A stretch of DNA of 64,000 nucleotides, from positions 879,333 to 943,332 of the forward strand of contig NW_006767433.1 in the NCBI RefSeq assembly GCF_000264995.1. The letters run 5' to 3'. Both the position numbers and the translations under genes were made by a program. Positions 4,805 to 62,853 of this stretch are shown in pieces (position 1 is the first letter of the stretch; each line of letters opens with the position of its first letter). This DNA comes from Punctularia strigosozonata HHB-11173 SS5. Its lineage: Eukaryota; Basidiomycota; Agaricomycetes; Corticiales; Punctulariaceae. Below the pieces are notes generated by a model that searched no databases, had not been told where the DNA came from, and saw nothing but the letters and a program-made list of their open reading frames with translations.

Positions 4805-6460
4805 ATGACCTGCGAGCTCCGTACTGCCACAGACCAGATGCTGGCCAACCAGCAGCGCATCGGGGTTCAGATCGAGTCTCTGCTCGACCAAGTCCGCACA
4901 CTACGCACGCAACACAACCACTGGGCGCCCGTCTCCCGCCTCCCGCCCGAGCTCCTCTCCCTCGTCTTCCACCACTGCGTCTACTCTCCAGCCGACTACC
5001 CCCGTTGCTCCCCGGGCGGCTCCGGCCCCGCGACCCCGTCGCTCCCGCTCTCGACGCGCCTCTTCCCGTTCATGGAGGTCTGCCGTCACTGGCGCGCCGT
5101 CGCGCTCAACTGCGCCCCGCTCTGGTCGAACGTCGCCTGCATCGACGCCTCCCTCACCGCCGAGCTGCTCTCGCGCTCCAAGGACGCCCCGCTCGACATC
5201 CTCGCCTACGGGCCCTACGTCGCGCCCACGCGCCTCGCGCTCTCCGAAGTCCGCCGCGCGCGCCGGCTCCAGTTCCTCGCCGTCGACAACCTCACCTCCG
5301 CGTACGCCGACTCGGGCCTCGTCTCGCGCCCGGCCCCTCTGCTCGTCTCGTGCGCGATCGCCGCGAGCCGGTACGCAGATACGCACCCCCGAATCCCGGG
5401 AACGTTGTTCGCCGGGGAGGCGCCCCGCCTGCGCCAGCTCCAGCTCTCCTACGTCGACCTCGCCCCGCGCTGGGACCAGCTCGCGAACCCGTCCTTCGTC
5501 GGCCGCCTCACCCACTTCACGCTCCAGCTCGCCGGCCCGGCCCACGCCGACGGCGCGTTCCCGACCGTGCGCGAGATGGTGCGCGCGCTGCGCGCGATGC
5601 CGCGCGTGCAGGAGGTCGAGATCGCGGTGGACGATCTGCCGGTGTTCGACGTCGCGGACGTGGATCCGCCCGCGGACGGGGAGGGGGAGGGGGAGGCAGG
5701 GTCGGCGCTGGCGACGCTCGCGTGCTTGGAGACGCTGCGCGTCTCGGGCCGCGCGATCTACGTGCTCGAGCTCCTGCGGCGGCTCTCTACCCCGCGCGCG
5801 ACGGCCGTCGACGTCCGCCTCCTCTACCCCGGCCGCTACCCGGACCTCTCCGGCCTGTGCACCTTCCTCTCCCGGCTCTATCCCGCCACCGCCGCCGGCC
5901 ACTACCAGGACCAGGACCAGGATCAAAGCCAGGACCAGGACCGGCGACAGCAAGGTTTCCACCGCCTTTCCCACCACAACGGGCCGTCCGGGCTCGAGCT
6001 GCTCGCCATGCGCGCCGGCGCGTCGCCCGCGCGCTTCGCGCTGCACACCGCCGCGACCGTCCCGCTCGGGAACGCGCCCGAGCTGTACGCGCACCTCCCG
6101 CTGCACGCGCTCGAGTACCTGTCCGTCTGCGACGGCTCGCTCGCGACGGACGGCGCGCGCGGGATGCTCGAGCGCTGTCGCGGGCTGCAGGCGCTCGTGC
6201 TCGAGGGCGCGGAGGCGGCCGCGGCCTTCGGTCCGCTCCTCGCGCACGGGACGCTGCTGCCGGCGCTGAGGAAGCTGTACCTGGTGCACGTGGGAGGGGA
6301 GGCGTACGGCGAGCTGAGGCGCGTGCTGGAGGAGCGATGGGATGCGCTGGGCGCCGTGCCGGACGTGGTGACCTCTGGAGAGGAGGGAGAGGAGACGGTA
6401 CAGCTTAGGAGCACGATCAAGAGGCTCAGGGAGGGTGCTGCGGTACTGTACGCGTCGTGA
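4805..6460 (+). CDS. F-box protein with LRR-like C-terminal region
   Basis: Single-exon gene, 551 aa. Residues 1-40 form a short coiled coil (TDQMLANQQRIGVQIESLLD), followed directly by an F-box-like motif, WAPVSRLPPELLSLVFHHC (about 39-58), and then MEVCRHWRAVALNCAPLWSN. This coil-F-box-WRAVA layout is the standard architecture of the large Agaricomycete F-box family, which supplies substrate receptors for SCF ubiquitin ligases. The rest is Leu-rich with irregular LRR-like spacing and a short Asp/Gln-rich insert (QDQDQDQSQDQD). The start is the first ATG ahead of the coiled coil. Substrate unknown. A very long antisense ORF over the same interval is a GC-content shadow. Confidence 0.85.
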   Translation: MTCELRTATDQMLANQQRIGVQIESLLDQVRTLRTQHNHWAPVSRLPPELLSLVFHHCVYSPADYPRCSPGGSGPATPSLPLSTRLFPFMEVCRHWRAVALNCAPLWSNVACIDASLTAELLSRSKDAPLDILAYGPYVAPTRLALSEVRRARRLQFLAVDNLTSAYADSGLVSRPAPLLVSCAIAASRYADTHPRIPGTLFAGEAPRLRQLQLSYVDLAPRWDQLANPSFVGRLTHFTLQLAGPAHADGAFPTVREMVRALRAMPRVQEVEIAVDDLPVFDVADVDPPADGEGEGEAGSALATLACLETLRVSGRAIYVLELLRRLSTPRATAVDVRLLYPGRYPDLSGLCTFLSRLYPATAAGHYQDQDQDQSQDQDRRQQGFHRLSHHNGPSGLELLAMRAGASPARFALHTAATVPLGNAPELYAHLPLHALEYLSVCDGSLATDGARGMLERCRGLQALVLEGAEAAAAFGPLLAHGTLLPALRKLYLVHVGGEAYGELRRVLEERWDALGAVPDVVTSGEEGEETVQLRSTIKRLREGAAVLYAS

Positions 6461-6664: not shown

Positions 6665-7404
6665 TCAGCGAGCCATCCGAGACAACCGCGATCGGGAAGC
6701 CATTCTGACCTTGCCCGTCTCGACCTCGTACACCCACCCGCTCACCGTCGTCTCCGGCAGCACGAGCGGGCTCTCCTTCAAAAACGCCACGTCCTCCTTC
6801 ACGCTGCCCTCTAGGTCGTCAAACTCCAAGAAATCGATGCCGTCCACCTGCTTCGCGACCTCGGCCGATGTCGACTCGGGCGCGGACCGTTTGACGATGT
6901 CGCGCAGCTGGCCCGAGTTGAAGGTGAGCATGCCGCAGCCGGTGTGGTGGAAGACGGCGATCTCGCGCGTGCCGAGCAGGCGCTGGGAGATCACGATGGA
7001 ACGCAGGGCGTCTCGTCTGGTACACGTGGTTTTGGGATGAGTTGACTGTGAGAGTGAGAGATAAAAGTGGGGGGGGGGGAGGAGGAAGAGACGTACGCGC
7101 TACCGCCGGCGTTGCGGATGATGTGTGCGTCGCCTTCTTTCAGGCCCAAATGTTGGGCCGGGCTGCAGGTCGTTTCAGATATCGTGGTCAGGCCGGCTTT
7201 CTTCGCGTTTCACTCACTCGATCCGAGCGTCCATGCACGTCACTAGGATGGGTCCGTCGGTACAAGCGATGCAGAGATAGCCTATGCCCAGGAATGCTCA
7301 CCGACGGTAAGATGCTTCGCGGGCGGCAGAGGCAGATCGCCCTTATCTCCAAACGTGCTCACATACGCGTCGTTCGCGCTCTTGAACTCGGTGTGGGCCG
7401 GCAT
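6665..7404 (-). CDS. beta-carbonic anhydrase (copy 1)
   Basis: Interconverts CO2 and bicarbonate; a small fungal plant-type beta class enzyme. The model is complement of 7302-7404, 7218-7242, 7097-7162 and 6665-7016, 181 aa, fully in frame. Zinc ligands are Cys37 in VTCMDARID, His89 and Cys92 in FHHTGC; Asp39-Arg41 is the catalytic dyad. GDAHIIRNAGGSA and SQRLLGTREIAVF are also canonical. The length fits the short fungal clade. The last residues after VETGK are less certain because GTCAGA could be a donor there. A TATATAA box lies about 65 bp upstream of the ATG. The exon pattern matches the second copy at 40733. Confidence 0.93.
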
Positions 7405-9955: not shown

Positions 9956-12231
9956 CCAGCCCTCACTTGTATGTGGGCGATGGTCGTAACGGTAGCTTGG
10001 CTCGGGCACACGTCGGTCCTGAGGTACACACCACAGCCGCCATGGTGCGGATGACAAACACCGAGCCCCCCTGGCCGATGGACTAAAAGCGTAATTCTTC
10101 ATTAATCATGGAAGGCTTGCTAGCACGTCGGCTCGCATCGAGCTATCGACATCCGCGTAGATCAATGGCTCCATTCTCTAACGTCAGATATAGCCACGGA
10201 ACTCACCAGCATACGACCTAGGACGTGACTCCAGAGTTATCGCCCAGTTCAAGTCATTTGAGCGGGCTCTTGCACAGTGATTGTCAGACTGACATGCATA
10301 CAGCGATATCAGCCCTCAGGCATAACACGGTGAAGCCCTCGGAAGAAATTGCCTAAAATCAGTGTTTCCCAAACAGTATCAAAGCGAGAAAAGGAACGCC
10401 AATGACATACCGACTGCCACAATTACGGATGACATGATGAAAATGAGTCGTGATCCGAACTCGGCATTCAGACCAAGTCGGGTGTCCGACGCCTCCGATG
10501 TGGAAGATGGGAAGAGCCGCGACGCCGAAGTTGGGAGAAGTCATAGAGAGCCCAACGTCAAACTAGAGGTTCCGTGCTACTCCGATTGGGTGATTGAACT
10601 CCGGAATGTCGAATTCAGTAGCCGATGCTACACGGATCGAACATGAATGCGGAACCTCACGACCTCAGCTGGGTTGAATGGCAGAGCGTGTTGCTTCTTG
10701 CTTCTTGCGCACGTTCGGGCTATTTACTGTGAATTCAATACTTGGGGACAGCTCGTGCTGGCGGCGCTTATACCTCGGTCAACTATCCGTTCGATTTCGG
10801 GAGGGGAGACCTTGGATCGCGTGCGGGAAATTGAAATGTTGTGATGCAGACGAATATTGCGGATCCGGAGGGCGTATCGAAGGGTGCTCGGGATGAAGAT
10901 TATACCCTCGGCACCGGTGGGCATGTGCCGCTTCGGAACTGTCAATATGCGACCAAGTTCTTTCAATGTCCACATTCGCGCAGAGACGACTTACTTTCAT
11001 CGTCGAGCAGACGCGCGTTCAATTGCTGACGAGCCATCAGAATATCTCCAACAATTGTCTCCCGTTACACAACGTACTCCTCATTTGTGGGTGACGCATG
11101 AGAGAATTCGCCAAGCCACCATCCCATGCCACGACGGCGCGAGACAAGCGCCGGCGGTGGCATCAGCTAGAAGCAAGCGTGCCGATGGTGTAATTTCGTG
11201 TGAGCGGCTAAAGAATCTCGGAGCACTCACAACAATACCAACCGCTTCCAGTCCGACGGAATATCGAGAGTTGCGCGATTCGTTCATTTTCTGAGCAGGC
11301 TGGAGAATTCATGACAACCATACGTGTACACCGTGCATCGCCTAGATACTGGTCGCAAAGACGTCAGCCTACGGCTCTCTGGCTAACCTCAAGATCGCCC
11401 CACCTCTCTGTGTCATACCGGCGTGCCCATCTTATGTTCCATTTCTTCCAGTCCTTGCACCCTTGACCCTCCTGCTGACGCTTGTCCTCTTTCTTGGCAT
11501 GTGCATTGCGGACCGTATCGCCCTCCTTCCTCCACTCGTTTCGCTCCTATGTACACGTCTCAGTTCAAACACGCCAAGCCACTATTAACAATGTGCAGCG
11601 AGATCAAAGGCTGTTCCGCCGTCAGAGCAGCGATGCCAACACGAAGGTGGAGGAGAACTGCAGTAAATATGTAAAACCGAGCCAACTTGCATTCGCGGCG
11701 CGAGACTCGGCGTGGTCGCGTCACGAGTTCAGACGGACCTCCTCTCTGCTCTTGCGATGACTACCGTTGTACCAAGTGCAGCTCGTTAATTAATCGCTAA
11801 ACTTCAAGGAGCTCTACCATGTCAAAAATGCGATATCGTTCTGGTCAACCTCCGACTGACCGCTGGACGAGATGGCGGACCGTGCAGATGCATGCTTTCC
11901 GAGCATCGTTCTGGCGGTTTATTACCGCCCATTCCTCATTCCGATCGGACAGCGGATAGTTCACCCTTATCCCGCTGCAGGAACGTTCTCGAGTATCTTC
12001 GATAATGCTCCTATTCTCCCTCCTTGACCGACGGACCGCGAACGGAACGGCTGCTTCCCTCTGGCATTAATCCGCCGCGGAACAACGTCCCTTGCCGCTC
12101 GCGCGACGACGACCTCATTCCGCCGCCCCTTCGCCAGCCAGGAAATAGAGGATAATCTGCATCAAGCGTGCTCCAGGGATTGATTGCTAGAGTATATCCA
12201 TTATATGCCCCTGTTCTCCTCGTCGGTCGTG
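9956..12231. other. 2.3 kb gene-poor interval
   Basis: Only short frames without family resemblance or consistent splice sites. No repeat, RNA gene or transposon ends were recognised. Confidence 0.55.
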
Positions 12232-12238
12232 TATAAAA
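12232..12238 (+). promoter_or_regulatory. TATA box of the CPL1-like gene
   Basis: TATAAAA 59 bp before the ATG at 12297, followed by a pyrimidine-rich CATCCATCCATC leader, typical of a strongly expressed basidiomycete gene. Confidence 0.65.
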
Positions 12239-12296
12239 CCTCGCCCATCCTCGCCTTGGTCCTGTCATCACTCACCCATCCTCACATCCATCCATC

Positions 12297-13530
12297 ATGC
12301 AGACCCGTGGACGTTCCCTCAGCCTTACTCTCGCCTTGATTGCGCTAGTTCCTGCCACGCTGGCGCAAACGGCTTGCCCAGCCGGAAGCTACAACACCGA
12401 GACCGGCGAAGATCCATGCACCGCATGCCCTGCTGGCCAGTACCAAGACCGTGAGTTGAGATCTCTTCACGGGCTCTCTTCACCGCCTCACGTGTGCTTC
12501 AGAAACTGGTCAAACTGCGTGTATCAACGCCCAGGCGGGGTATTTCGTCGCCGACACGGGCGCCACAGCACAGACCATCTGCCCGGCGGGTTCCTACAGC
12601 GCGACGGAGGGCAGCACGGAGTGCACCACTTGCCCGGCAGGGTCGTCCTGCCCTACGGAGGGTGAGACGGCTCCTGTGTCGTGCCAGCCGGGGCAGTTCC
12701 AAGACCAGACCGGCGCGACGACCTGTAACGACTGCGCAGCGGTGAGCACATTCTTCTGCTACAGCGCGTCGGACACGATCTGATCTCGTCGCTGCAGGGC
12801 TCCTTCAGCGACCTCTTTGGCGCCACGGCGTGCTGCACCTGCTGCTCTGGGTTTTATCAAGACCAGACGGGTCAGACGTCGTGCACGGTCTGTCCCGCCG
12901 AGGGAACCTTTGCGCAAGGCTACTCGGACCCCGGCGCGACGAACGTCGAGCAGTGCACTGCGCAGTCCGGCGCCGTCGCCACTTGTGACCAGGACACCTC
13001 GACCGGCACATGCCGTGAGCATACACTCTCTCCTCCATTCCACATGAGGTCGTACTGACGATTCGTTCTCAGCCACGACGACCGCAGATCCCGCTACGCC
13101 CACCGGCGGAACGCGCAAGCGTGCCCCGCTCCGCCCTCGTTCCGGGTCGTGCGCACGCGGCCAGAGCTCCTGCCCGGTCTACAAAAACGGCGCCGTATCC
13201 GGATACGAGTGCGTCAACACGTCGATGAACCTCGAGCAGTGCGGCGGATGCGTCACCAGCGGAGGCGGCCTTGACGGCGCTCGATCGCTCGACGGCGGGA
13301 GGGACTGCAGCGCGATCCCTCAGGTGGACGAGGTCAGCTGTTTCAAAGGCGGCTGCCACATCAGTGAGTCTCGTTTTGCAAGCCCGATGTTGCTCGGTAA
13401 GCTGACCTTTGTGTGCACAGAATCTTGCCGCGCTGGCTACGAAGTTTCGGAGGATGGCGAACGCTGCCAGGCTTCGAAGACTACTACTCGCAAGCGTACG
13501 CAGAGCCGCAAGAACAAGAGGACCGTCTAA
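12297..13530 (+). CDS. Secreted Cys-rich protein with CPL1-like domain
   Basis: The model is join(12297-12450, 12503-12741, 12798-13014, 13073-13363, 13421-13530), 336 aa, all GT-AG and in frame. A clear signal peptide ends near LVPATLAQ. Residues about 24-190 hold repeated ephrin-receptor-like modules of the type CPAGxYxxxxG...C (CPAGSYNTETGE, CPAGSYSATEGS, CQPGQFQDQTGA, CCSGFYQDQTGQ). After a basic TRKRAPLRPRSG linker comes the C-terminal domain seen in Cryptococcus Cpl1 and many Agaricomycete proteins: SCARGQSSCPVY, ECVNTSMNLEQCGGCV, GRDCSAIPQVDEVSC, CRAGYEVSEDGERC. It ends in a basic KTTTRKRTQSRKNKRTV tail. Likely a secreted or wall protein; the molecular role is unknown. TRKR could be a Kex2 site separating the two halves. 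An exon-4 relic lies at 8440. Confidence 0.9.
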
Positions 13531-15448: not shown

Positions 15449-18316
15449 TCAGTTCCAGGTGCTAGGGCCGAAGGTCTCGTTTGCGGCGAGAGTGTAGAAC
15501 GGCGCGCCTTCCGCGTCGAGGTTGTTCATCCAGCCGGTGTTGCCCCACCACGCCTGGATGGTGTTCAGGCCGATGGTTCCGTTCTTCGGGAATTGCAGGC
15601 TGCAACAAAGGTCCATGTCAGCCTCTCCAAAAAAGAGCGCGTCCGATATCGCGCGCGAAGAGTCTCTGTAACTCACCAGAAGAAGATGACGATGAGCGCC
15701 AGCGACACGCCCGAGTCGAGCGCGGCGGAGAGGATGTAGTTGTACCGCATCCACCAGCGGAAGTGGAAGCGGCGCATGAACCACTGGAACACGAACCCGA
15801 CCGCGAACCAGGACGCGTAGTTGATGCCGCTCGCGGGGGGGATGAAGGCGACGCCGTTGAAGAACACGGGCATATTCACGTACCGCCAGAGCGAGCGCGG
15901 GTACTTGCGCGCGAGGAAGTAGAACGGGATCGGGGCGATCGCGCCGATGAGGAAGAAGAACACGAGCGGGTAGTAGATCGCGCCCTTGGAGAAGATCCGC
16001 GAGGGCCCGATCCCGCCCCAGAGCAGGGAGGCGGAGGCGAAGGTGCCCGTGGACGGGCAGATGAAGCCGTTCTTCTGGTCGTCGGTGCACATCCCCTCGA
16101 TGTTGCCGAACATCCAGGACTGGACGCCGACGACGACGAAGCAGGAGAGCACGGTCGCGATCGACTGGGACCAGAACATGATGCGCGGCGGGACCTTCAT
16201 GTAGTGCCCGAGCTTGAGGTCGCCGGCGAAGGCGAGACCCTGCTGCGTTGCGATGAAGCCGTAGGTCTTGAAGATCATCATCGCGATCGGCCGGCCGGGG
16301 AGCGCGTAGCCGATGATGAGCTCGACGAGGACGTTGAGCGGCACCTGCTGGTTCGTGATGGCCTGGATGATACCGCACGGGACCATGAGCACGAGGGAGA
16401 TGAGGAGCGCGAGGACGTAGGCCCAAACGGGGAGTTGCGTCGGCCAGTGCTCGATCGCGACGATACCGAGGACGAAGGCGACGACGAAGAGGAGGAAGTA
16501 CCAGTAGTGCGGAACCTCTGGGTAGGCGGCCATGAGACGCGCGTGCACGTCGCGCTCGTCCTTGAGCGAGCGGCGGATCTGGCGCATGATGTCGTGGCGG
16601 TACCACAGGAAGACGTGGACGATGACAGCGGTGAAGGCGGCGAAGGAAACACCGTAGGAGAGCGCGAACGTCGTAGAGATGAAGACCGGCGAGTAGGCCT
16701 TGTACTTCTCGACGTCAAAGACGCCGTTGCTGACGATCCTGGTGACGTCGTAGGACGCGCCCGTGTTGTCGTACGTATCGAAGCCAGAGATGGGGAGGAA
16801 CTTGGCGAAGAAGACGTTGCGGTAGTAGAGGATCGGGGTGAGGACCCAGAACCACAGGACGAACGACACGAAGGTGTTCGCCTCCGCCCACCACTGTGCA
16901 AGCATAAATTGAGACATTGTGCTTCATAGAAGAAGGAGAGCTGAACGTACCGGGACTACGAGAGGACTGCCGATGTACGCGATCATAGACCAATCGAAGG
17001 TCAGGATACCCATGCCAAGGCCGGTGTTGGTGCCGAACAGTTGGTTGACGACGATGTTGTTCGGCTTGATCCAGCACACCCAGTTCATGACGCTGAGCCC
17101 GGTCCAGAGGTATCCGGGCACCCAGTACCACACGAAGCTGGCGAGGAGCGCGAAGCAGAAGAAGCGTTCGCGGGTCATGTGTCCCCGATCGCGGCGGCCA
17201 AAGTTCTTGTGGAGCGTGTTGAACAGCGCGGCGTTGACGAGCGCGCCTGGCCAGATCATGCTCGACGGCCAGACGAGGAACTGGCGGACGAGGCCGCCGA
17301 AGGCGTAGCCGATGAGCTGGGACGAGACGGTGAGGAGGATCTGGTACGCGAACGGCCAGTTCTGGCCGTAGAAGACGCGCTGGGCGGCGATGACCTCGGT
17401 CGCGTACGCGCCGCCGACGACGACGTTGGCCATAACAGTGATGACGGTGTGCTCCTTCACGTTGAACGGCGAGCCGTCGTTGAGGGTGAAGCTGATAGAA
17501 CGGCCGCGGAAGAGCGGAATGCGGATGCGGTGGCGGGGGAGGATATACTCGAGGCCTTTGCCGAGTGGGAGCGCCGTCAGCTGGGCGACGAGACCGGTGA
17601 TCTGCACGCTCGGGTCTACATGGAGCGCCGTCAGCGTGGTTCGAGGGCTATAGAAGCAAATACGTACAGCGCAGACCGAAGAACTGGTTGAGACCGGAGA
17701 TCAAGATCGTGTAGAAGATGCCGAGCACCCACCTATCGAAGTCGGTCAGAAACGAAGACGCTTAGGCGGGCAGAAAGGAAAAGCTCACATCCTGAAGGTG
17801 CTGACCGGCATAGAGGGGTCATCGATGTTAGACACCGCAGCGCGCACTTCAGCGTACGGCGACTCGCTGATAGGAAAACAGATCAGGAAACTGCAACGCG
17901 CGGACCAGGAGCCCGAGGCCGACTCACTCGTTGTAGTCCTGCTCAGGGACCGCGGTGGACTCGGTGCGCGAGGCCGAATCGAACCTCGTCGTGGAGTCGT
18001 CCGTCTGCTCGAGCGACTTGCCCGAGAACGACTCGGGCCTACCGAGCTTCTCGGTGGAGTACTTCGCGCCGAGCGTGCGTTTGTTGCCCATCTCGACGTC
18101 GGTCGCGCTCGACGTCTCGGAGACGCCGTCGCCGTTGCCGTGGACGTGGGTGCTGTCCATGTCCCAGTTGGGGTCGTTGAAGTGCGCGAGGTACGGGTCT
18201 TCCTCGACGTCCTCCGGCACGTCCGCGGCGCGGCGTTGGCGGAGGAAGGAGGGCAGGGCGATCCCGTACGCGGTGGTGGTGGCGGCGCCATCCGTATCGT
18301 TAGCCACGTAGGCCAT
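15449..18316 (-). CDS. OPT-family oligopeptide transporter
   Basis: Proton-coupled small-oligopeptide transporter of the plasma membrane, OPT family. The start is at 18316 (MAYVANDTDGAATT). A hydrophilic N-terminus of about 130 residues, rich in Ser, Thr and Asp, leads into SPYAEVRAAVSNIDDPSMPV, a motif that opens the OPT core. Membrane segments then follow to the end: VQITGLVAQLTALPLGKGLE, QLIGYAFGGLVRQFLVWP, GHYMKVPPRIMFWSQS, SASLLWGGIGPSRIFSKG and FFNGVAFIPPASGINYASW are all family-conserved. The C-terminus ANETFGPSTWN stops at 15449. About seven exons are joined by short introns (for example YN(D)-ESPY at about 17888-17930, and near 16920, 17660 and 17740). The copy looks complete. Two GATA-type sites about 690 bp upstream could place it under nitrogen control. 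Confidence 0.93.
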
Positions 18317-27265: not shown

Positions 27266-29435
27266 ATGTCGCTCATACAGGGCTACTCGTCTGACGAGGA
27301 TGCTGGCTCGCCACCACCGACTGGCGATGTCTTCGGCCTGTCTGCCATCCATGCGGCCAAGAAACCTCGGGTATTGGTGCAAGAGAAGGGAATCATTGCT
27401 CCAGCACCAGCCGACTCTGCGCCTCACGTCCTGGCGGAGGTATATTTCGCTGCTACAAACCTCTCTAGCCACACGGACGCTAAACGCGGGCATGTCTAGG
27501 ACCCGCTCAAGCAAACATCACTGGTTACGCGGCCTACGGACACGCAGATGAACGTCAACATCCCCTATCAAGACATGATGCTCCCCATCCAAGGCCCCGA
27601 AAACCCTTTCGGTGACCGTAACCGCTTCATCAACCAAAACGCGCTCGCCGGGCATGTGGAAGAGCAGGAGATGACGGAGCACGCGTTCCGGCAGCAACAC
27701 CTGACGTACCACATCCTGGGCTACTCCGCGAACCCTTCCATAGATCCCAACGCTCCCGCGATCATCGGCAACATGGAGGTGGCGCGGGCGAACGGCTTCC
27801 GGACGGTGGACGGGGTGCAGGCGAGCCGGTCGCAGAAGAAGGAGTTGAAGCGGAAGCGGAAGGAGAAGGGGGACCTGGAGGTCGTCGATGGCGAGGGGGC
27901 ATACGTCGGGCCGTGGGGCAGTTGGGACGGGGACCAGCCGAAGAGCGTGTTGCCGGACGGCGTCGACCCGAATGCCGAGCCGGGGGAGGAGGAGGTGTCC
28001 GAGGAGGAGGAGGAGGTGCAGACGAAGAAGGCCAAGCCGAAGAAGGGCGCGCCGGGGCAGGAACACTCCGTCTTCCACGGCAAGTCCATGACCGACTACC
28101 AGGGCAGGACGTACATGTCGCCACCGGTCGGCGAGGCGCCGCAGCTGCAGGCCGAGCCAGGGTCGCAAGACACGTTCATACCGAAAACATGCATCCATAC
28201 TTGGACCGGTCACACACAGGGCGTCTCTGTCATCCGGACGTTCCCTCAGACGGGTCATCTGCTGCTCAGCGGGTCAATGGACACCAAAATCAAGGTGGGT
28301 GCATGGCGCCAATCTACCTATACCGAGACCCGTACTCACTAAGACGGGTGCGCTTATCAGCTCTGGGATATATACACGCATGGCAATTGTCTGCGTACGT
28401 TCCACGGGCATGTGAAGGCCGTCAAGGACGTCACGTTCTCCAACGACGGTCGCCGATTTTTATCCTGCGGCTACGACCGACAGATGAAGCTCTGGGACAC
28501 CGAGACCGGGCAGTGCATCAAACGATTTAGCAACGGCAAGATTCCATACGTCGTCAAATTCCACCCCGACGATGATAAGCAGCACATCTTCCTCGCTGGG
28601 ATGTCCGACAAGAAGATCATTCAGGTATGGCGCTTCGGCCATTATTGATGCATCGGCGCCGCCGTCTGACCGCGCGCTCCCACAGTACGACATCAACAGT
28701 GGGGAAATAACGCAAGAATACGACCAGCATCTCGGCCCGGTCAACACTATCACGTTCGTAGATCAGAACAGACGGTTCGTAACGACCTCTGATGACAAGA
28801 CGATTCGCGCCTGGGACTTCGATATCCCGGTGGTCATCAAATATATCGCCGAGCCTCACATGCACTCCATGCCTGCTGTTACACTCCACCCTTCCCGTAC
28901 GTCCGCGTTGACCACGCCTGTCACTTTCGGTCAATAGGCTCGGCTCACACGAACCCGCTATGCATAGTCAAATACTTCGCAGCCCAGTCATTGGACAACC
29001 AAATCCTGATCTACAGCACCGACAACTTCCGCCAGAACCGGAAGAAACGGTTCGCGGGCCACTCCGTCGCGGGTTACGCCTGCCAGGTCGGCTTTTCGCC
29101 GGACGGAAAGTGGATCAGCAGCGGCGACTCCGGAGGATATATGATCTTTTGGGACTGGAAGACGGGGCGGATCAAGTCGCGTCTGAAGGCGCACGACAAG
29201 GTCGTTATCGCGCACGAATGGCTGCCGCATGAGACTGTGAGTGTCGTGACGTCGTCTAATGGCCTTCTGCGCCGCGCGGTACGGGTTTTTTTTTGACTGA
29301 TGATGATGTGTATCTAGTCGAAAGTCATCACCGCCTCCTGGGACGGATTGATCAAGCTCTGGGTAAGAAAAATCAATCATAATCTCCATCTTTTTCGGCG
29401 TTTCTCACGCTCTTTCGCGGTCGCAACAGGACTAA
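27266..29435 (+). CDS. PRP17: PRP17/CDC40 pre-mRNA splicing factor
   Basis: WD40 splicing factor needed for the second transesterification step. The model is join(27266-27439, 27500-28294, 28361-28624, 28686-28896, 28938-29236, 29318-29362, 29430-29435), 597 aa, all in frame. The N-terminus [12 protein letters not shown] and the central [34 protein letters not shown] and acidic/Lys-rich linker are typical. Seven WD repeats follow, with [13 protein letters not shown]-type sequence, [57 protein letters not shown] and [13 protein letters not shown]. The last exon codes only for Asp plus the stop and rebuilds the conserved KLWD end of the family. Confidence 0.96.
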
Positions 29436-30823: not shown

Positions 30824-31312
30824 ATGTTCTTCTGGAGGTGTTGCGCGCTTCTGTTGCTGCTGCTCGTCACACTCAGCGTCGCCGTCCCCGTACGTCGTCT
30901 CCGTCGCGCCATCGTCTAGAGTCCTGGTACTCACTTCCGCGCTTTCATCATCAGACCGCCGCGGTGGAGCGTGATGCCGTATTAGAAGAGGTACGTGCCT
31001 CCATTACGACATCAGCTATCTATTGCTTACCGGTACCGGCGTCATCTACAGCGGGGCGATAACGCTGACGGGGGCCGGGGGAGACCCATATGGAGGAGAG
31101 GGGACAACGCGGACTGGAAGAGGGGCGACAACGCAGATTGGAAGCGGGGAGACAACGCAGACTGGAAGCGGGGGGACAATGCGGATTGGAAGAGGGGTGA
31201 CAACGCCGACTGGAAGCGCGGCGACAACGCTGACTGGCGCCGCGGCGACAACGCCGACTGGAAGCGGGAACCCCACGCACACGGCCACGAGCGACAACCC
31301 TCTGACTGGTGA
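30824..31312 (+). CDS. Secreted Kex2-type repeat peptide precursor (GDNADW x7)
   Basis: The model is join(30824-30889, 30955-30990, 31052-31312), 120 aa; both introns are GT-AG (65 and 61 nt), all junctions are phase 0. Exon 1 codes a 22-residue signal peptide, MFFWRCCALLLLLLVTLSVA-VP. Exon 2 codes a short acidic propeptide, TAAVERDAVLEE. Exon 3 starts RGDNADGGRGRPIWR (a degenerate copy) and continues with seven identical GDNADW hexapeptides, each preceded by KR or RR; the tail is KREPHAHGHERQPSDW. This matches the known layout of fungal Kex2-processed repeat proteins: dibasic sites would release GDNADW in the Golgi, with carboxypeptidase trimming of the KR tail. Codons for Gly, Ala, Asn and Asp differ between copies while the peptide is identical. 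The role is unknown; candidates are a signalling peptide, a surface peptide or a RiPP core. Confidence 0.8.
31052..31290 (+). repeat. 24-nt coding minisatellite in the peptide precursor
   Basis: Eight imperfect tandem 24-nt units coding for (K/R)RGDNADW. Differences lie mostly at third codon positions. It lies wholly inside the reading frame and keeps it. Confidence 0.85.
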
Positions 31313-40183: not shown

Positions 40184-40732
40184 AATTCGCCAGTATGACC
40201 TCGATCCACGAATGACGGAGGGGAGTCGGGACCCTGGAATGGGGTTGTGGCGTCGCCGTGTCGGACAACTTGGGCTCAGATCCGGAGTTGATGGGTCCGC
40301 TCAGTGCTCGTCCTCCCATCTATCACCTTCTTGGAAGACAGCTTTGCAGGATGGATCTGCTACGATCGTTATGGGCCACTCAACGGCTGACCCTATGGAC
40401 AGCTTGCCTGAGTGCACATTGCAAGGGACTGGTGTATCCACTAGTACTTGTTCTATAGTTCAGAGATGAACGGAACTACCGCCTCTCGTCATAGGTAGAT
40501 GCTATACTGTCCACTGCTGTCAAGCGCGCCCTGTAGGATGATATCGATGATCCTCCTCCTACCTTGTTACTTCTGCTGACCAACATCAATTCCCTTCTCG
40601 TCAGTTCGTGCGGGTCAGTATAAGTGGGTCAACGCTGCATCAGCGTCCGTACATGCCATGTCAAAAGACATTTTCGTAGGTTCCTAATTATACACACCTC
40701 TCCTCATCACGTACCTCCACACCAAGAGCAAT
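40184..40732. other. Intergenic between RINT1 and carbonic anhydrase copy 2
   Basis: Divergent promoter region. AGTATAAG near 40617-40624, about 110 bp before the carbonic anhydrase ATG, is a possible TATA box. No gene seen. Confidence 0.5.
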
Positions 40733-41481
40733 ATGTCGAGCTATTACACCGAATTCGAGGCTCGCAATGCACAGTATGCCAGTACTTTCGGGGCAGGCAA
40801 GAGCCTGAGCATGATGCCCGAGAAGCGAGTTATCATAGGTATGTTCCGCTTTCAGCACTACTGGTCCGCATTCAAGGCATGTTCTCACTCCGCTGAACAG
40901 TGTCTTGCATGGATCATCGCGCCGAGTATACTATATAGTTTCCTGCATCTGCGCTCTAAGCACCGATGCACTGACTACATTCCCAGCCCCGCTCACTTCC
41001 TCGGCTTGAAACCAGGCGAAGCCGTGGTTATTCGCGTCGCCGGCGGATCCGTGTACGTTTTCGGGTCATCTCATATGCCACCACTTTTTGTGTTCTGACG
41101 CTCGAGTTCGGTCGCAGCCGCGAAGTCGTTCGCTCGCTCGTCATATGTCAACGATTCACCGGCGCCAAGGAGATCGCGCTCTTCCGTCATACCAACTGCG
41201 GCGGCCTGACCTTTACCGCGGAAAGCCTTCGCGAGCTGATCCTTTCGGCACACCCGGGCGACAAGGAGGTCGCCGAGGCGGTCGAGAAGGTGGATTTGTC
41301 AGGGGTCACCGATGTCGAGGACGCGCTGAATGCCGACCTCAAGTTTTTGCACGAGCACCCGCTGGTGCTCAAGGACACGCTCATTACAGGGTGGATCTTT
41401 GACGTTGAGACTGGCAAGGTTTGGGATATCCATGCTGCTGGCCCTTCGCATCGTTTGCTTACACGTCCGTATCTATCATAG
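40733..41481 (+). CDS. beta-carbonic anhydrase (copy 2)
   Basis: The model is join(40733-40838, 40901-40925, 40987-41052, 41118-41481), 186 aa. Zinc ligands: Cys38 in VSCMDHRAD, His90 and Cys93 in FRHTNC; Asp40-Arg42 is the dyad. FLGLKPGEAVVIRVAGGS and CQRFTGAKEIALF match the family, and the N-terminus SYYTEFEARNAQYASTFGAG parallels copy 1. Exons 2 and 3 are exactly 25 and 66 nt with the same phases as copy 1, so the two genes share an ancestor. Differences from copy 1: CMDAR is CMDHR and IIRNAGG is VIRVAGG. All metal ligands remain, so activity is likely but may be altered. The C-terminus after VETGK is uncertain because GTTTGG could be a donor. Confidence 0.9.
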
Positions 41482-62674: not shown

Positions 62675-62791
62675 TTATCCTCGGAACGTGCAGCATCTGT
62701 GGATTGACAAGAGACATTGCGCCGATCAGAGCTTCCGCGTGTACAAGAGAAGACAGACGGAGAGGGAGGGAGATAGAGAGGGAGATAGGGA

Positions 62792-62853
<62 letters not shown>

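Follow-up and report, generated by a model that had tools for sequence, protein, structure and literature searches.

Background

The locus considered here, at positions 30824-31312 on the plus strand of a 64,000-nucleotide stretch of the genome of Punctularia strigosozonata (hereafter referred to as the window), raises the question of whether a fungal gene encodes a secreted precursor from which one and the same hexapeptide, GDNADW, is released several times over and, if so, to which class of peptides the product belongs and what its role may be. The preliminary description of this DNA had proposed a secreted Kex2-processed repeat precursor, and had named mating peptides, signalling peptides and the cores of dikaritin-type RiPPs as products of the same architecture.

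KEX2-processed repeat proteins (KEPs) are recognised by at least three repeats between KR, RR or KK sites; Le Marquer 2019 admits cores from three residues upward, and a conserved XSDW repeat is described there in KEPs of the Basidiomycota (PMC6339444). Umemura 2020 counted 7878 KEPs under a detection rule of at least eight amino acids per repeat, outside which a six-residue core such as GDNADW may fall (PMC7329392). Mass spectrometry has detected KEP peptides with a common -AADW end, among them SGTGEASAADW in Lentinula and forms of SGVAADW in Pleurotus, and knockouts of six kep genes in Coprinopsis are reported to show no phenotype (PMC9769878). A search of the literature, judged by titles, found no publication dedicated to the function of the -DW peptides.

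Methods

Gene models linking a hydrophobic ATG start to the repeat array were searched for with up to two introns, each 45-90 nt in length and having a GTRNG donor, a YAG acceptor and a branch-like site. A purpose-written gene finder was also run, with codon scores taken from the other genes of the window, this locus being excluded, and with generic splice weights; the ends of the neighbouring genes given below come from this programme and are approximate.

Results and discussion

Gene structure and predicted precursor

The spliced reading joins three exons on the plus strand (30824-30889, 30955-30990 and 31052-31312) and translates into a precursor of 120 amino acids. Exon 1 encodes the signal-peptide-like segment MFFWRCCALLLLLLVTLSVAVP, in which the Kyte-Doolittle value of a 12-mer reaches 3.07 at residue 6, while the remainder of the precursor does not exceed -0.93. 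Exon 2 encodes a short acidic propeptide, TAAVERDAVLEE, and exon 3 carries the repeat array, the tail and the stop codon. Both introns are in phase 0 and run from GTACGT to CAG, intron 1 (30890-30954) being 65 nt long and intron 2 (30991-31051), which lies directly 5' of the array, 61 nt. The two segments named above are followed in the precursor by RGDNADGGRGRPIWRR, by seven GDNADW units with their KR or RR sites and, after the last KR, by the C-terminal tail EPHAHGHERQPSDW (31268-31309). Read without splicing, 30824-31312 runs into in-frame stops. A Pfam scan of the predicted protein matched no domain. The coordinates, the three in-phase exons, the stop and the seven identical units were all found as originally proposed.

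The search for models with up to two consensus introns returned a single one connecting a hydrophobic ATG start to the array; among 1500 random anchors, any such model was obtained for 4 at a threshold of 3.0, for 8 at 2.6 and for 13 at 2.2. The gene finder gave the identical three exons, with a low score (17). Since it also produced many long unsupported models on both strands, some of them scoring far above 17, only the agreement of the exons is used here, and this match is an agreement with the gene model and not a proof of it.

The repeat array and its silent variation

The seven identical units occupy 31100-31267 on the plus strand, six of them followed by KR and one by RR. At the third codon positions Gly and Ala show all four bases, Asn is encoded by AAC or AAT and the second Asp by GAC or GAT, while the codon of the first Asp is GAC in every unit; the dibasic sites, too, are maintained through differing codons. 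At least eight base changes are required among the seven units, all of them at third positions and all silent, and the probability of such an outcome, had the changes fallen freely, ranges from 6e-7 (kappa 1) to 6e-6 (kappa 4). When all six frames of the window were scanned for sets of three or more near-identical fragments bounded by dibasic sites, this array was the sole piece recovered, and 60 windows of equal length simulated with a first-order Markov chain yielded no comparable array. The output of the tandem repeat finder includes a 72-base row hinting at a duplication of three units, a possibility that was rejected as the differences between units by lag give it no support.

The opposite strand of the array (31100-31267, minus) is also open in long frames, and its frame -1 retains a repeated QSALS, because the wobble positions of that frame oppose those of the sense frame. 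Silent variation by itself is thus no proof of the strand. It is the signal-peptide-like start, together with the splice sites and the dibasic sites, that favours the plus strand as the putative coding strand, and the antisense frame was set aside as a coding frame on the same grounds.

Decayed units at the edges of the array

Alignment to the intact units revealed a decayed copy on either side of the array. The head unit, GDNADGGR, at about 31055-31078 on the plus strand, no longer has the Trp or the dibasic site; its alignment score of 34 was reached by none of 1000 shuffles and by none of 2989 background 25-mers. The tail unit (31291-31309, plus strand) aligns to an intact unit with an insertion of 2 nt, which puts its GDN part out of frame (the reading there is RQPS), and DW returns to frame before the stop. 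Its score of 25 was reached by none of 1000 shuffles of 31288-31312, by 3 of 1000 shuffles of the whole tail and by 2 of the 2989 background 25-mers. The segments in between gave no signal of further decayed units, the score of 31079-31099 being reached by 654 of 1000 shuffles and that of 31268-31290 by 856 of 1000.

The decayed edge units are a new observation, and with them the array was formerly longer than seven units. An intact centre with decayed edges would be consistent with selection acting on the core and, in addition, with some homogenisation. With respect to the preliminary description, the variation at the DNA level under a constant hexapeptide was borne out, with the addition that the first Asp codon never varies; its proposal of selection on the hexapeptide gains from the at least eight changes that are all silent and from the decay of the edge units; and its account of the extent of the array holds for the seven intact units but had overlooked the decayed head and tail.

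Classification among the KEX2-processed repeat proteins

Seven identical GDNADW units between KR and RR sites place the precursor within the KEP definition, and the predicted signal start is a further feature that it has in common with KEPs in general, along with the minimum of three repeats and the KR/RR sites. All seven cores end in ADW and hence in the form [A/S]DW. On account of this shared -ADW end the precursor is classed here with the KEPs and compared to the -[A/S]DW group. With the Lentinula edodes KEP 2599, the Pleurotus ostreatus KEP 1091723 and the XSDW proteins it shares a secreted precursor, repeats bounded by dibasic sites and the [A/S]DW end, and KEP 2599 is likewise reported with a 7-fold repeat (PMC9769878). 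The -AADW KEPs, however, have cores of 7-11 residues as against six in GDNADW, and the Pleurotus precursors carry a STE13 signature which the GDNADW precursor lacks. The likeness is one of motif: GDNADW resembles the -AADW peptides in three residues of the predicted core. The PSDW of the tail does not add independent support for this likeness, because it is derived from a repeat unit.

The GDNADW string, for which the preliminary description knew of no described peptide, was not found in the literature searched, the supplementary tables of published KEPs lying outside that search, and by this absence its core is set apart from those of KEPs in general. The pattern R-G-D-N-A-D-W followed by a dibasic pair had no match in a viral and no match in a prokaryote collection, results that carry no information on fungi since neither collection is fungal. 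The earlier reading as a secreted Kex2-processed repeat precursor is thus upheld by the predicted signal start and by the KR/RR-bounded repeats; its class placement was right as regards the KEPs and had passed over the known basidiomycete -AADW peptides and the XSDW motif.

Genomic neighbourhood

The precursor gene stands alone between a WD40 gene (27266-29435, plus strand, WD40 by Pfam), which presumably resembles PRP17, and the MCM3 gene (from 34097, plus strand, Pfam and PDB matches). Farther away lie genes for a Myb protein, a TauD-type dioxygenase, an OPT transporter, RINT1/TIP1, an SGT2-like TPR protein and Prp19. The PDB matches of MCM3 and of a carbonic anhydrase in the window do not discriminate between phyla; the peptide motif and the richness of the genes in introns point to a basidiomycete.

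The window contains several other features. A carbonic-anhydrase-like gene at 6738-7016 (minus strand) has a Pfam Pro_CA match just under the cut-off, and another at 40727-41418 (plus strand) matched carbonic anhydrases of the PDB (E 1e-17) with no Pfam match. The gene finder predicts a cysteine-rich protein with CPAGSY/CPAGQY-like repeats at 12205-13530 (plus strand). A long open frame at 4814-6436 (plus strand) weakly resembles an F-box domain, its match of 23.1 bits falling short of the cut-off of 24.3, and a GAGA tract of about 23 copies of the 4-base unit lies at 62760-62850.

Proposed processing and role

Rather probably, the gene encodes a KEP precursor that yields a linear, secreted, acidic hexapeptide with a C-terminal Trp, which would probably act as an extracellular signal. 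By analogy with the class, the predicted signal-peptide start would direct the precursor into the secretory pathway, a kexin would cleave after each KR or RR of the array and a KEX1-type carboxypeptidase would remove the basic residues, so that each precursor would give rise to seven secreted copies of linear GDNADW, their C-terminal Trp being free. Trimming by STE13 is not expected, because each unit begins with GD and not with XA or XP.

It is quite possible, though put forward tentatively, that the signal is addressed to the fungus itself or to its mates, with the C-terminal A-D-W as the part recognised, as may also hold for the -AADW peptides of Lentinula and Pleurotus. The lack of a phenotype in the Coprinopsis knockouts, which concern six other KEPs, does not favour an essential self-signal (PMC9769878). 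The main rival to self-signalling is a role of the peptide towards other organisms, be they bacteria, animals, plants or rival fungi, with the same KEP processing. This is rather unlikely, though it deserves serious consideration: a role in the biotic environment is favoured by the authors of PMC9769878 because the kep knockouts were without phenotype in axenic culture, whereas the same source reports that synthetic KEP peptides were inactive against the bacteria on which they were tried, and a small, acidic and soluble hexapeptide would be unlike a membrane-active peptide. A structural function at the surface, of the kind known for the peptides of Rep1 of Ustilago, appears extremely unlikely. 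The peptides of Rep1 are long and hydrophobic, whereas GDNADW is short and acidic. What the two precursors would share is processing by Kex2 at repeats, which in Rep1 leads to peptides that form amyloid-like fibrils (PMC9769878). Equally slight is the chance of an alpha-type mating pheromone as found in ascomycetes. Alpha pheromones share the secretion route and Kex2 cleavage (PMC6339444), and their precursors contain Kex2-cleaved repeats that are released as linear peptides, as is predicted for the present one. However, the mating pheromones of basidiomycetes are described as a-type, and a six-residue core lies below the 9-24 class of the alpha pheromones (PMC6339444); all seven units start with GD, so that the XA/XP signature of STE13 is absent after the Kex2 sites. 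The GDNADW precursor thus differs from the ascomycete ones in this signature, in its shorter core and probably in phylum, and the mating-peptide reading of the preliminary description is weakened by the a-type nature of the basidiomycete pheromones and by the missing signature. The locus might also be silent or a decaying gene, with the repeat as a relic. The decayed units that flank the array on both sides would agree with this, as would the antisense frame, which is likewise open and repetitive; but the seven core units are intact with silent changes only, the spliced frame is open with consensus introns and the dibasic sites are maintained through different codons, which makes a relic very unlikely.

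A dikaritin-type RiPP, in which UstYa-type DUF3328 enzymes cyclise or oxidise the cores once Kex2 has released them, was considered in view of the matching precursor architecture (PMC9769878), which the GDNADW gene has in common with the precursors of ustiloxin, phomopsin and asperipin. In 4 of 7 cases, Trp-containing KEPs of type P-3 are reported to have a DUF3328 gene as a neighbour (PMC7329392), and UstYa-like genes are numerous in mushroom genomes, 16 in Pleurotus (PMC8893723), so that such an enzyme might act from elsewhere. On the other hand, a DUF3328 (UstYa) enzyme is class-defining for the dikaritins (PMC12048977), and DUF3328 accompanies 103 of 1680 basidiomycete KEPs (PMC7329392). 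Neither DUF3328/UstYa nor tyrosinase was among the Pfam matches of 12 six-frame strips over 16000-46001 (E up to 0.001), a search that intron-split genes can escape, and neither DUF3328 nor tyrosinase was found in 39 ORF pieces of the window and the precursor (E up to 0.001), these pieces being what was scanned with Pfam outside 16000-46001. That a gene can be missed in this way is exemplified by the carbonic anhydrase piece at 41095-41418, which has no Pfam match yet matched in the PDB. The HxxHC motif of UstYa has seven matches in the window, and by their positions no two of them share an open frame; the closest pair (minus strand, 40764 and 40897) is separated by 133 nt, falls in two different frames and runs antisense to the carbonic anhydrase gene predicted there. 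A tyrosinase pattern has no match in the window. The dikaritin kinship suggested earlier is therefore not supported, because DUF3328 and tyrosinase are not among the matches in the neighbourhood and, in contrast to the dikaritin precursors, the core is without Tyr, and this reading too is to be regarded as very improbable.

The OPT oligopeptide transporter gene of the neighbourhood (15449-18316, minus strand, Pfam PF03169) lies 12.5 kb from the precursor gene. By analogy, GDNADW might be a quorum- or hormone-like signal that this transporter re-imports, the A-D-W shared with the mushroom peptides serving as an address. A comparison is offered by Qsp1 of Cryptococcus, which carries a C-terminal Trp and occurs in a single copy. 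Qsp1 is a secreted signal cut from a precursor, matured extracellularly by Pqp1 and imported by Opt1, its action requiring the OPT transporter (PMC7537855). As a secreted basidiomycete peptide released from a precursor, GDNADW would resemble Qsp1 (PMC7537855), a likeness of kind, but Qsp1 has 11 residues (PMC6339444) as against six. Proximity of an OPT gene is weak evidence for import, because the OPT genes form a family, with three clusters in Laccaria (PMC4282482), and re-import by the transporter is accordingly held to be very doubtful.

Conclusions

The locus looks like a real and fairly ordinary new representative of the known class of fungal repeat-peptide precursors. The gene carries an internal control, the intact core units standing next to decayed edge units, and this contrast points to selection on the hexapeptide. 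With GDNADW the basidiomycete -DW peptides, some of which are made in edible mushrooms, would gain a core that is very short and repeated without variation, and such a peptide would be cheap to synthesise and an easy target for mass spectrometry.
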